A stretch of 20,212 bases of DNA from a virus. The position numbers and the translations under genes are program-made. Under the pieces are notes generated by a model that was not told the origin of the DNA, did no database searches, and saw nothing but the letters and a program-made list of their open reading frames with translations. The stretch covers positions 1 to 20,212 of IMG/VR virus record IMGVR_UViG_3300008267_000525. One strand, 5' to 3'. This document shows, piece after piece, positions 5,754-19,482 of this stretch; position 1 is the first letter of the stretch; the number at the start of each line of letters is the position of its first letter.

Positions 5754-5773
5754 TTAAAACTTATGATTATGAA
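5754..5773 (+). repeat. conserved translation-start leader, copy 2
   Basis: A 20-base exact copy of 197-216, again placed so that it contains the ATG ATT ATG double start, here of the ParB-like gene. It follows a 21-base gap after the HNH gene. Confidence 0.6.
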
Positions 5774-6524
5774 AACAGAATTAAAAGATGCCTTAGCATT
5801 ACTTAGAAAAATTAAATTCAGTAAAGACTACAAAAAGTTTGCTTTCCTTGAGATTAATAGAATAACTGACACAGAGCATATCCAAAAGATGATTGCTAGT
5901 GTTAGAAATATGGGTGTAATAAGACCTGTAATATGTGTTAGAGTAACATTTGTTGATGGTAAATCTCAGTTATATGTTATTGACGGTCAGCACTTGTTTA
6001 AGAGTCTTATGTCAGAAGATCTAGAAATACCTTATGTAGTAATTGATGTTAAAGATAAGATTGACATGGTGCATAAAATGGCTATGTTAAACAATTCATC
6101 TAAGTCTTGGACATTGCTTAATTATGTTAATGCATTTAAAATGCACCTTAGAGATTACTATCTATTAGATGAACTAAGAGTTATGTATAACATTGAACCT
6201 TTAATGTTGGCTACAATATGTACTAATGGTACTGAGTCTTCAATCTCTGGTTCAAGATTAATAAAATCTGGTGAGTTTAAAATTACTAATCCGCAAGCTC
6301 AAGAAATGGCAAAAGCATTCAATGATTTCTTTTTGAAGATTGGTAGAGCAGATAGATGGGTTAAGCATCACTTTTTACAAGTATTCTTGAGAGCTTGGGG
6401 TACATATGATCACCAACAGTCTTTAGATAATCTTAATAAACATATTGCTACTATTAAGGCTATGAGTGATACTAGTGCTGCAGAAGCTTTTATAAGCAAA
6501 AACATATTTAATCTAACAAAATGA
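5763..6524 (+). CDS. ParB-like N-terminal-domain protein
   Basis: 253 residues. Residues about 27-95 match the ParB/Srx fold: a 'plan' strand, a helix, VIRPVICVRV, then the signature LYVIDGQHLFKSL (residues 70-82, DGQH at 74-77) corresponding to IIDGHHR of ParB-like proteins. 'MLNNSSKSWTLLNYVNAF' (109-125) is the usual follow-on helix pair. ParB-type domains bind CTP and DNA in partition proteins; phage relatives include nucleases and DNA-modification partners. The arginine found in GERR-type boxes is not evident, so the catalytic type is uncertain. It overlaps the SF2 helicase gene by four bases, suggesting joint action. Confidence 0.8.
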   Translation: MIMKTELKDALALLRKIKFSKDYKKFAFLEINRITDTEHIQKMIASVRNMGVIRPVICVRVTFVDGKSQLYVIDGQHLFKSLMSEDLEIPYVVIDVKDKIDMVHKMAMLNNSSKSWTLLNYVNAFKMHLRDYYLLDELRVMYNIEPLMLATICTNGTESSISGSRLIKSGEFKITNPQAQEMAKAFNDFFLKIGRADRWVKHHFLQVFLRAWGTYDHQQSLDNLNKHIATIKAMSDTSAAEAFISKNIFNLTK

Positions 6525-7618
6525 CAAAAGATAGACAAGACATACAAATGGAAGCTTTAGCTGCTACTGATGGGAAAAGACTCTCATCAGTAGTGCTTGG
6601 AACTGGTGTGGGTAAAACTCTTGTAGGCCTAACACATATGGATAGAAACTCTACACCATTGATGAAATGTCTTGTAGTTGCACCTAAGAAAGCTATATTT
6701 CAATCCTGGAAAGATGATGCTGTTAAGTTTGATAAACATCATCTACTAGGCAGAATAGTTTTTACTACTTATCTAAGCTTAAATAAGCATGATCCTAAAG
6801 ATTATGATGTTGTTTATCTTGATGAGATGCATAGTCTACTAGACAGTCACCGGGGATTCTTGCAGTTATTCAAAGGCAAGATACTTGGTCTAACGGGTAC
6901 TCCACCAAAGAGAGACTATTCAGAGAAAGGTAAGCTAGTGCAAGAGTTTTGTCCTGTAGTATTTACATTTAAGGCAGATGATGCCATAGAAAACGGAATA
7001 CTGAATGATTATAAGATTGTTGTGCATGAGCTGAGACTAAGCAAAGAAAAGAACTATCAAGTTACTATGAAGAATAAAACATATATGACAGATGAAGAAT
7101 CTAATTATGTTTATTGGTCTAGAAGACTTGATGTTGGCTCCGGCAGTTTGCATATGCTCAGAGTTATGAGAATGAAAGCTCTTATGGAATACCCTACTAA
7201 AGAAAAGTATGCTAAGTTATTATTTGACAGCATAGAAAGTAAGTGTATTCTATTTGCTAATACTCAAGCTCAGGCAGATAAGTTATGTAATCATAGCTAT
7301 CACAGCAACAATCCTAAATCAGAAGAGAACTTACTTAAGTTTAAAGATGGAGAGATTACCAAACTATCTACTGTTCTACAGTTGAATGAGGGTGTGAATA
7401 TACCTAATCTTAGACAAGGTATTATTATGCATGCATATGGTAATGAGAGAAAAGCTGCTCAAAGGATTGGCCGGTTACTCCGGTTAAATCCAGATGATAA
7501 AGCTATTGTTCACATACTATGTTATATGGATACAGTAGATGAAAAGTGGGTAAAAGAAGCATTGGAAGGATTTGACCAGACTAAAATTATGTGGAAAAAT
7601 TTCAATGTTAGTGTTTAA
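6521..7618 (+). CDS. superfamily 2 DNA helicase / translocase
   Basis: 365 residues, compact. Motif I (Walker A) GTGVGKT 27-33; motif II DEMH 101-104 after VVYL; motif III GLTGTP 123-128; motif IV-like ILFANTQAQ about 243-251; motif V NEGVNIP 289-295; motif VI QRIGRLLR 314-321 with the arginine finger. This is a complete SF2 core of the UvsW/SSL2/SNF2-like kind seen in phage replication modules, probably branch migration, R-loop removal or origin handling. It lies directly behind a ParB-like gene and ahead of clpS. Three CCGG sites occur, two nine bases apart at 7471 and 7480. Confidence 0.9.
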   Translation: MTKDRQDIQMEALAATDGKRLSSVVLGTGVGKTLVGLTHMDRNSTPLMKCLVVAPKKAIFQSWKDDAVKFDKHHLLGRIVFTTYLSLNKHDPKDYDVVYLDEMHSLLDSHRGFLQLFKGKILGLTGTPPKRDYSEKGKLVQEFCPVVFTFKADDAIENGILNDYKIVVHELRLSKEKNYQVTMKNKTYMTDEESNYVYWSRRLDVGSGSLHMLRVMRMKALMEYPTKEKYAKLLFDSIESKCILFANTQAQADKLCNHSYHSNNPKSEENLLKFKDGEITKLSTVLQLNEGVNIPNLRQGIIMHAYGNERKAAQRIGRLLRLNPDDKAIVHILCYMDTVDEKWVKEALEGFDQTKIMWKNFNVSV

Positions 7619-7635
7619 TTTATTATCTTAATGGT

Positions 7636-7890
7636 ATGGAAGAGACCAAAACACACAGATTAGTAATTTACAATGATGATGTAAATTCATACCAGTATAT
7701 CATGGCTAGCTTGATTAGGTTCTGTAAACATGAGCCTCTTCAAGCTGAGCAATGTGCTTTATTAGCACATATGACCGGAAAATGTCAAGTTAAATCAGGA
7801 GATTTCTTGGAAATGTTTGATTTAAAGAATAAATTTGATGACTTAGACATTAACACAGAAATTCAAGAGTATGCAGGTAATTTGCATTGA
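7636..7890 (+). CDS. clpS: ClpS-like adaptor (N-degron recognition)
   Basis: 84 residues covering almost the whole ClpS core. The substrate-pocket signature YNDD is at residues 12-15 (N13, D14, D15), followed by the first helix. LLAHMTGK (42-49) corresponds to the LAVHYQGK region of E. coli ClpS, with H45 at the pocket His and GK conserved. A C-terminal 'LDINTEIQ' matches the last strand of the family. ClpS delivers proteins with N-degrons to the Clp unfoldase/ClpP protease. The E. coli gate residue Met40 aligns with Tyr19, so specificity may differ. A phage-made ClpS could redirect or block host proteolysis. The family call is strong; the role in infection is inferred. Confidence 0.85.
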   Translation: MEETKTHRLVIYNDDVNSYQYIMASLIRFCKHEPLQAEQCALLAHMTGKCQVKSGDFLEMFDLKNKFDDLDINTEIQEYAGNLH

Positions 7891-7910
7891 TGATTTTTTT
7901 TGTATATTTG
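7881..7910 (+). promoter_or_regulatory. Bacteroidota-type promoter for the GIY-YIG gene
   Basis: TTTG (7881-7884), 18 bases, then TATATTTG (7903-7910) fits the Bacteroidota consensus TTTG/TAnnTTTG. It begins inside the end of clpS. Transcription should start about 4 bases after the -7 box, at or beside the ATG at 7914, giving a leaderless or almost leaderless message. Confidence 0.65.
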
Positions 7911-7913
7911 TGT

Positions 7914-8633
7914 ATGAAAAAGTTTTTTATATACACTCTAGAGGATCCAATTAGTTTAAAGATAAGATACATAGGATTAACTTCAAAAAAATTAAGTGTA
8001 AGATTATCTGGCCATTGTGCAAGCTTAGAAAAAAGTAAATCACATAAAACAAATTGGATTAAAAAACTTATTGTTCAAGGTAGAAAACCAATAATTAAAG
8101 AATTAGATATTGCATATTCATTAGAAGAAGCTTGTGAGCTTGAAATTTATTGGATTGACCAATTTAAACAATGGGGTTTTGATTTAACAAATGCTACTAT
8201 AGGTGGTGAGGGTGTGATTGGATATAAATATGATAAAGAAATGTATAAGGTTCTTGCACAAAAATTATCTAAACCAATTTTACAGTATGACATAAAAGGT
8301 AACTTTATTAAAAAATGGAATTCTATACTTGATGCAGCTAAATACTTTAATTGTGGATCAACTGCTATAAGACATGCTCTAGTAGACTATAAAAGAACAA
8401 GTAATAATTTTTTTTGGAGATACTATGAAAAAGATTATCCTGAAAAAATAAATGTTAGTGTTCTTTCTGGAAATGTAATTCCGTTAAAAGTATATGATAT
8501 TGTTTTAGATATAACAACTACATATATGTCAAAACAAGAAGCTTTTGCTACAGTTGGAAGACCTAGTAATTATAGCAAATATGTTAATAAAGATAAGTAC
8601 TTTAAAAAAAGATATAAATTTATGTTATGCTAA
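7914..8633 (+). CDS. GIY-YIG homing-type endonuclease with NUMOD-like repeats
   Basis: 239 residues from the ATG at 7914; an ATG at 7890 gives a longer N terminus that lies over the promoter and is less likely. The GIY-YIG domain is residues about 4-85: FIY 5-7, RYIG 18-21, candidate catalytic R30, metal-binding E77 (ELEIYWI). Residues about 121-170 (PILQYDIKGNFIKKW..., AAKYF...AIRHAL...F-W-R-Y) form a NUMOD1/IENR1 DNA-binding repeat, and 190-235 a second, weaker one. This is the design of free-standing phage homing endonucleases. The gene is more AT-rich than its neighbours, has its own promoter, and contains no CCGG. It was probably inserted between clpS and the 8627 gene. Confidence 0.88.
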   Translation: MKKFFIYTLEDPISLKIRYIGLTSKKLSVRLSGHCASLEKSKSHKTNWIKKLIVQGRKPIIKELDIAYSLEEACELEIYWIDQFKQWGFDLTNATIGGEGVIGYKYDKEMYKVLAQKLSKPILQYDIKGNFIKKWNSILDAAKYFNCGSTAIRHALVDYKRTSNNFFWRYYEKDYPEKINVSVLSGNVIPLKVYDIVLDITTTYMSKQEAFATVGRPSNYSKYVNKDKYFKKRYKFMLC

Positions 8634-8896
8634 AAGTAATATGTATTGATGCCAGTAACAAGCCTAAAAGAATATCACCATATGAGTGGTTAACTGAAGG
8701 TAAAGTGTATACAGTAATTGAAGTTGCAAGAATGAGTTTACAACAAAATAGATTTGGTTATAGACTCAAAGAAGCGCAACTATCAGAACAATCATTTCCT
8801 TATGAGTATTACAGTGCTGATAGATTTGCTCCTTATGTTACTTTAGAAGCAATAGAAGCAGAACATTTTCAAGAAGCAGATTTAGAAACAGTTTAA
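8627..8896 (+). CDS. small conserved-looking phage protein, SH3-like
   Basis: 89 residues: KVICIDASNKP, then GKVYTVIEVA, then EYYSADRFAPY. This short beta-rich pattern ('cIDnS...GK.Ytv...yy..RF.P') recurs in small phage proteins, probably an SH3-like barrel, with no known function. It overlaps the GIY-YIG gene by seven bases, so the insertion left the start of this gene intact or supplied it. Confidence 0.7.
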   Translation: MLKVICIDASNKPKRISPYEWLTEGKVYTVIEVARMSLQQNRFGYRLKEAQLSEQSFPYEYYSADRFAPYVTLEAIEAEHFQEADLETV

Positions 8897-18079: not shown

Positions 18080-19060
18080 ATGATTTCAACCAAAGGACTG
18101 ATATCTGATATAAAAGATGTACCGGATGAATGGATTTATGAATATTATTTAAACCTAAAAGAAAAACTTACAGGTCAAGATATAAAAATGCTTTCTGCAT
18201 TTAACTCAAAGGATAAAGTTCCTTCTATGTTTGTGTATTTTGATGTGGTATCTAATAGATATAAGCACAAAGATTTTTCTTCTGGTAATCAAGGTAGCTC
18301 ATGGAATTTAATTCAACAGTTGTATAACCTGACTCCAGGTGATGCAGCTAAGAAAATAATGAATGACTATCAAGCATATCTTAAAAACAATACAGTAGTT
18401 GAGAAGAGAGAGATAGTAATACATGACAAATTTAAGGTTGTGGATTATGAGATGAGGCACTGGAATAATTTAGATAAAGATTACTGGACAGGTTTTAAGA
18501 TTGGATCTAGTATACTTGATAGATATAATGTTGTTCCTTTAGATTTCTTTACAATGGAGAAAACAGAAACAGATGGTACTATGACTTCATTTGTGTTTAA
18601 GAAACCATATACTTATGGTTATTTTAGAGATGATGGGAGTTTATACAAAATTTACATGCCCAGGGTACCAGATAAGAAATTTATAAAGGTTGAGAATTAT
18701 ATCCAAGGTATGGATCAGCTTAAGTATGAAAGTAAATATCTACTGATTACTTCTTCTCTTAAAGATCTAATGTGTTTTAATAGACTAGGTATAAATAATA
18801 TTGAAGCAATTGCTCCGGACAGTGAGAATACTATGATAGGTGAAAGAGCTATGAGTGAGTTTGTAAGACATTATCAAAAGATTATTGTTCTGTTTGATAA
18901 TGATGAGCCGGGGATTAAAGCAGCTGAAAGATATAAGCAAATGTATGGATTTAATTATATTGTCCTGCCTATGGAGAAAGATCTTTCAGATTCTGTTAAG
19001 CTACATGGTATAGATAAAGTAAGAGATATATTATTTCCACTATTAAAACAAGTATTATGA
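18080..19060 (+). CDS. Toprim primase (DnaG-like), degenerate zinc domain
   Basis: 326 residues. Residues about 38-85 follow the fold of the DnaG zinc domain (KVPSMFVYFD...YKHKDFSSGNQGSSWNLIQQLYNLT) but have none of its zinc-binding Cys/His set. Residues about 220-320 are a Toprim domain: LLITSSLKD (221-229), then VLFDNDEPG (270-278, D273 and D275), then KDLSD. At the acidic position usual in EGxxD there is Ser (S225). It synthesises RNA primers for the DnaB fork. It heads the unit after terminator 3. The missing Glu and zinc ligands may be a lineage feature. Confidence 0.85.
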   Translation: MISTKGLISDIKDVPDEWIYEYYLNLKEKLTGQDIKMLSAFNSKDKVPSMFVYFDVVSNRYKHKDFSSGNQGSSWNLIQQLYNLTPGDAAKKIMNDYQAYLKNNTVVEKREIVIHDKFKVVDYEMRHWNNLDKDYWTGFKIGSSILDRYNVVPLDFFTMEKTETDGTMTSFVFKKPYTYGYFRDDGSLYKIYMPRVPDKKFIKVENYIQGMDQLKYESKYLLITSSLKDLMCFNRLGINNIEAIAPDSENTMIGERAMSEFVRHYQKIIVLFDNDEPGIKAAERYKQMYGFNYIVLPMEKDLSDSVKLHGIDKVRDILFPLLKQVL

Positions 19061-19482
19061 GTTGGTTATATGAAGGAAGACCTTTTAATGATAGCATGAT
19101 TCCAGATGGAGCTGTTGGATTTGTGTATGAGATGGAAGCTGTTATCAATGGAAAGTCTGTAAGATATGTAGGTAAAAAGAACTTTTACTCTGTTACAAAA
19201 AAGAAGTTTGGTAAAAAAGCTATGGCTAATGTAACAGATAAAAGAACTAAAAAGTATGAGACTGTTACTAAACCTAGCTATCAAAACTACTACAGTAGTA
19301 ATGCAGTTCTTAAAGAAGCTCACAAAGCTGGTGTAAAGATTAAAAGATTTATGGTCAAGATATGTTTTTCCAAGATGGAACTTACATATTATGAAACTAA
19401 ATATCAGTTTGTTAGAGAGGTTCTTGAAAAAGAAGAATTCCTAAATGGGAATATCTTAGGTAGGTTTTATAAAATCAAATAG
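19057..19482 (+). CDS. SegE-type GIY-YIG endonuclease
   Basis: 141 residues. GFVYE 21-25 and RYVGKKNF 36-43 are the GIY and YIG parts; SYQNYYSSN (74-82), E113 in YYETKY and NGNILGRFYK (130-139) complete the pattern of the phage SegE-like GIY-YIG family. Such enzymes cut related phage DNA and spread by gene conversion. It starts four bases inside the primase gene end (ATGA), so it is well integrated in the operon, unlike the promoter-carrying nuclease at 7914. Confidence 0.8.
   Translation: MSWLYEGRPFNDSMIPDGAVGFVYEMEAVINGKSVRYVGKKNFYSVTKKKFGKKAMANVTDKRTKKYETVTKPSYQNYYSSNAVLKEAHKAGVKIKRFMVKICFSKMELTYYETKYQFVREVLEKEEFLNGNILGRFYKIK

Follow-up and report, generated by a model that had tools for sequence, protein, structure and literature searches.

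ClpS without an N-terminal extension in a lineage of crAss-like phages

In this study we have examined a 20,212-nucleotide stretch of viral DNA (IMG/VR record IMGVR_UViG_3300008267_000525), called the window below, and found that it encodes a phage ClpS in which the residues that bind the α-amino group of N-degrons are intact. The open reading frame occupies positions 7636–7890 of the plus strand, exactly where the first-pass annotation of this DNA had placed it, and runs from an ATG to a TGA over 84 amino acids. Residues 3–63 match the Pfam ClpS profile PF02617 with 45.9 bits (E 4.9e-12; cut-off 23 bits), and every sequence in a 36-member alignment of phage relatives with bacterial homologues matches the profile as well. 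The comparison of a predicted structure with ClpS, which the first-pass annotation had suggested as a check, was favourable: the AlphaFold2 model has a pLDDT of 92.2 and a pTM of 0.81, and its closest folds in the PDB are all ClpS. The top 38 Foldseek matches are ClpS or ClpS-containing chains, and VIA-align superposes the model on M. smegmatis ClpS over 77 residues (Z 14.2, 1.4 Å), the next fold being ribosomal L7/L12 at Z 9.5. PHROGs holds no family that matches the protein, and its best score against the NCBIfam ClpS equivalogs, 18.9 bits, falls below the cut-off of 107, so that phage annotation based on these libraries would probably overlook it. The features discussed here are collected in Table 1.

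Table 1. Positions of the phage clpS, its pocket and motif residues and its neighbours in the window
Feature	Positions	Strand	Basis or remark
ParB-like protein	5763..6524	+	PHROG 12305, E 6.7e-12; Pfam ParB_N slightly under its cut-off
SF2 helicase (ResIII/Helicase_C), directly ahead of clpS	6521..7618	+	Pfam, PHROG
ClpS adaptor core, without N-terminal extension	7636..7890	+	Pfam PF02617, AlphaFold2, PDB ClpS
Asn13-Asp14-Asp15 (NDD), predicted binding of the N-degron α-amino group	7672..7680	+	Counterpart of E. coli N34-D35-D36
Tyr19, at the position of the E. coli Met40 gate	7690..7692	+	Alignment
Ala41, equivalent of E. coli Met62	7756..7758	+	Alignment
Ala44-His45, equivalents of E. coli Val65-His66	7765..7770	+	Alignment
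Gly48-Lys49 motif, beginning of strand 2	7777..7782	+	Alignment, AlphaFold2 model
Start of the usual downstream gene (MQVICID), overlapping the clpS end and interrupted by a homing endonuclease	7871..7891	+	Sequence
Complete copy of this conserved gene (MLKVICIDASNKP...)	8627..8896	+	Sequence

From the NDD, His45 and Gly-Lys motifs the protein had been described as a near-complete ClpS. This is right for the core, where the motifs are present, but the unstructured N-terminal extension (NTE) of the E. coli type, which is used in delivery, is absent: the Asn of NDD stands at position 13, and in the structural alignment residue 1 of the phage protein corresponds to residue 22–23 of E. coli ClpS. 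Of 90 viral entries (80 loci and 10 repeats, with 47 distinct proteins counting that of the window), 89 have their nearest ATG 12 residues ahead of this Asn and the remaining one has it 13 residues ahead. In the Bacteroidota homologues the ATG lies 24–42 residues before the Asn, mostly 24–31 (77/80), and 3 have no suitable ATG. Could the phage protein begin further upstream? In the window, none of the eight in-frame codons between the upstream TAG and the ATG at 7636 is ATG, GTG or TTG, and in 43 viral entries a stop codon just upstream leaves no alternative start, which excludes a longer ClpS in these cases; the remaining entries have possible upstream starts, mostly overlapping the helicase gene. 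The extension lies outside the Pfam domain, and membership of the ClpS family thus stands, while the label of delivery adaptor is weakened. In E. coli, ClpA grips the NTE in its channel and delivery is inhibited when NTE entry is blocked (PMC9663308), and without the NTE, ClpS is itself no longer degraded by ClpAP in vivo (PMC12974527). In plastid ClpS1 the core has an important part in the interaction with ClpC1 (PMC7966870). The proposal that the phage protein speeds the destruction of host proteins through N-degron delivery is weakened accordingly, since the part that E. coli ClpS uses for delivery is missing.

Asn13, Asp14, Asp15 and His45 are near-invariant among the relatives of the window ClpS. 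In a comparison of 47 distinct copies from phages and 79 from bacteria, the Asn and the first Asp of NDD never vary, and the second Asp is found in 85% of the phage and 92% of the bacterial copies. Tyr19 does occupy the position of the E. coli Met gate, as the first-pass annotation stated; the large change of gate that this seemed to imply is not borne out, as the position is Phe in 98% of the Bacteroidota homologues, and Tyr (61%) or Phe (38%) in the phages. Because the relevant bacteria carry Phe and not Met, Tyr19 is a mild change, and we have rejected a Met-to-Tyr specificity switch in the form in which it was put forward. The contrast between phages and bacteria is larger at position 44, where phages have Ala (80%) or Thr (12%) and bacteria Val or Ile. 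Position 41 is Ala in 100% of the phage copies and Thr, Ala or Ser in bacteria. It is possible that the small residues at positions 41 and 44 make the phage pocket wider.

The phage clpS is a conserved gene under purifying selection, with a median pairwise dN/dS of 0.24 over 801 pairs. An initial search of genome contigs with the single ClpS protein gave no match; among viral contigs the single-protein search found 10 relatives and an alignment search 268, of which the best 80 were kept (47 distinct proteins, as above). ClpS was present in all ten long contigs tested. Of eight long contigs of close relatives (87–123 kb), six carry TerL and portal genes akin to the cr52_1 genes of Crassvirales, the TerL with about 26–27% identity to Crassvirales and E values down to 5e-37. 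TerL and portal lie outside the window, and this evidence comes from the contigs of its relatives; the replication genes of the window itself keep the cr52_1 order around DnaB, a Sak4-like ATPase and primase. In an annotated phage collection the ClpS query matched three uncultured megaphages only, so the Crassvirales records in that collection hold no ClpS detectable at that sensitivity. The closest bacterial homologues are Bacteroidota ClpS (39–57% identity), and a tree built from 91 core sequences groups the phage proteins among them in one clade (support 100/99); the tree rests on 79 columns and many of its other forks are unresolved. These relationships would be explained by a single, ancient acquisition of clpS by the crAss-like lineage from a Bacteroidota host, after which nothing but the folded core was retained.

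The ParB-like/SF2-helicase pair reported ahead of clpS is there, both genes being matched by Pfam or PHROG profiles, and in one relative (L010) no ParB-like gene was seen upstream of the helicase. ClpS follows the helicase by 3–42 bp in 77 of 79 related viral helicase loci, a count that covers the closest matches, that is the 80 relatives kept. Of the two loci without a complete ClpS, one is cut off within the gene by the end of its contig and the other, L264, has no ClpS directly after the helicase. On the downstream side, a GIY-YIG/NUMOD1 homing endonuclease (7887–8633) is inserted in the window at about codon 7–8 of the next gene; L003 and L010 do not have this insertion after clpS. The window encodes another GIY-YIG endonuclease at 19057–19482, which is SegE-like (Pfam PF19835, E 1.5e-19). 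The phage-specific C-terminal tail of ClpS (YAGNLH or YESYMH) looks conserved among the phages. We did not retain it as a functional element of ClpS, because the next gene begins within the codons of the tail (in L003, ATG CAG GTG ATT TGC ATT GAT), and this overlap can account for the conservation.

With which protease might the phage ClpS work? The affinity of the protein and the crAss-like genes suggest a Bacteroidota host, and 195 of the 198 Bacteroidota genomes sampled have ClpS. Typing of the Clp_N unfoldases in two host-type genomes gave one ClpB and two proteins of 857–867 amino acids, with scores under the cut-offs for both ClpB and ClpA, which we read as ClpC-like; only 1 of 41 genomes gave a match that passed the cut-off for ClpA. 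As to a protease or unfoldase partner encoded by the phage, the contigs of relatives, which may be incomplete, showed no Clp_N protein in eight and no ClpP in ten; any partner is for this reason probably that of the host. E. coli ClpS contacts ClpA through E82 and K84 (PMC12493166). Neither contact is recognisable in Bacteroidota or phage ClpS, where the alignment register of helix 3 is ambiguous, and this speaks against the presumed docking on ClpC.

ClpS has been published for jumbo phages (PMC7824862, PMC6102473) and is annotated in PA5oct, GAP32, CBB, Phosso and others. The first impression that it is not a common phage gene needs to be narrowed to this extent, although for the crAss-like clade we found no report in a literature search that covered part of the journals. 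The phage gene is thus already known from jumbo phages, and it is the crAss-like form without the extension for which no report was found. The ClpS proteins of PA5oct, Phosso, SCTP-2 and Atu_ph07 are likewise phage-encoded, but of proteobacterial-type sequence, and those of PA5oct, Phosso and SCTP-2 retain the extension, with the Asn at 26–27, unlike the window protein. A ClpS-like protein of Vibrio phage 2.275.O starts 12 residues before the Asn, as in the window, but has a proteobacterial-type core and a long C-terminal extension; it has apparently lost the N-terminal extension independently. The megaphage proteins (LR745206, LR756504, LR756502) share the Bacteroidota-type signature with the window protein but keep 26–29 residues before the Asn; the N-terminal extension is retained in the 630–640 kb megaphages, and the two megaphage proteins included in the tree do not group with the crAss-like clade. 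Chromosomal Bacteroidota ClpS (Flavobacterium, Cytophagales) has the signature C.H...QAEQC...GKC.VK.G, NDD and the His in common with the phage form, but about 12–18 extra residues before the core and no phage C-terminal tail. E. coli ClpS shares the fold (Z 13.4) and the N-degron residues, and differs in its 25-residue NTE, its Met gate, its identity of about 14% and its partner, which is ClpA where that of the phage protein is presumed to be ClpC-like. Proteins of GAP32, CBB and XbC2 (Mimasvirus) annotated as ATP-dependent (Clp) protease with a ClpS domain have a long additional N-terminal part and no NDD motif, and may be unable to bind N-degrons. In a record named Acinetobacter phage MD-2021a, clpS and clpA stand side by side and are of bacterial type; the record may include host DNA.

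What would such a protein do in the infected cell? Judging from its residues and predicted fold, the phage ClpS would grip the free N-terminus of N-degron proteins, and its probable docking site, like that of host ClpS, is the N-domain of the ClpC-like unfoldase of the host. If the E. coli findings apply, hand-over of substrates would be poor without the flexible extension that ClpA pulls, and the protein itself would be long-lived. By shielding N-degron proteins and filling the adaptor site, such a competitor may lower or redirect ClpS-dependent breakdown by the host during infection. The retained grip residues and the missing extension together make a long-lived competitor the most likely role. 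We put forward, tentatively and at somewhat less than an even chance, a stable N-degron-binding and ClpC-docking modulator or decoy. The first-pass annotation had offered both faster destruction of host proteins and a block of the host Clp pathway; interference with that pathway fits better than delivery. That the tail-less ClpS of the crAss-like lineage is an anti-adaptor, which binds N-degrons and ClpC without hand-over and so blocks the N-degron pathway, seems to us rather doubtful. MgtC and acetylated HspQ, which keep ClpS from serving the Clp protease (PMC7966870), would be parallels to the phage protein in function only; they are unrelated to it in sequence and target ClpS or its substrate, whereas the phage protein would replace ClpS.

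We favour the decoy or modulator over a delivery adaptor, in which the phage ClpS would carry selected proteins of host or phage to the ClpCP of the host and a short N-terminus would be enough for ClpC. Such delivery, which Iyer et al. proposed for jumbo phage ClpS (PMC7824862), is a credible but unlikely role here. The intact core and N-degron residues speak for it, and the small residues at positions 41 and 44 could broaden the range of residues bound. Moreover, it is for E. coli ClpAP, and not for Bacteroidota ClpC, that the NTE is known to be needed; with the latter a short-tailed ClpS might deliver, and in PA5oct, Phosso, SCTP-2 and the megaphages, where the extension is present, delivery is plausible. 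Against this, the extension that the E. coli unfoldase pulls is gone from essentially all related phage copies and kept by the bacterial homologues. The close spacing of clpS behind the helicase gene would also suit a role independent of Clp, with the ClpS fold capping or chaperoning the free N-terminus of the helicase or of another phage protein. Yet this synteny may reflect only co-expression, no fusions were seen, and the preserved NDD and His point to N-degron binding, which makes a partnership of this kind improbable. Lastly, L264, with a helicase and no ClpS, would be expected if clpS were a weakly constrained passenger of no important function, but the low dN/dS and the retention of the gene at nearly all helicase loci and in every long contig leave this very improbable.

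To our knowledge, the part of the bacterial N-degron pathway in phage infection has hardly been studied. If the phage ClpS blocks the host Clp machinery rather than feeding it, it would act as a dominant-negative N-recognin of natural origin, with which the virus counters this pathway. The protein would also provide a test of the need for the extension beyond E. coli ClpAP. Since many related crAss-like contigs have retained the gene, any such effect would be wider than the oddity of a single phage.
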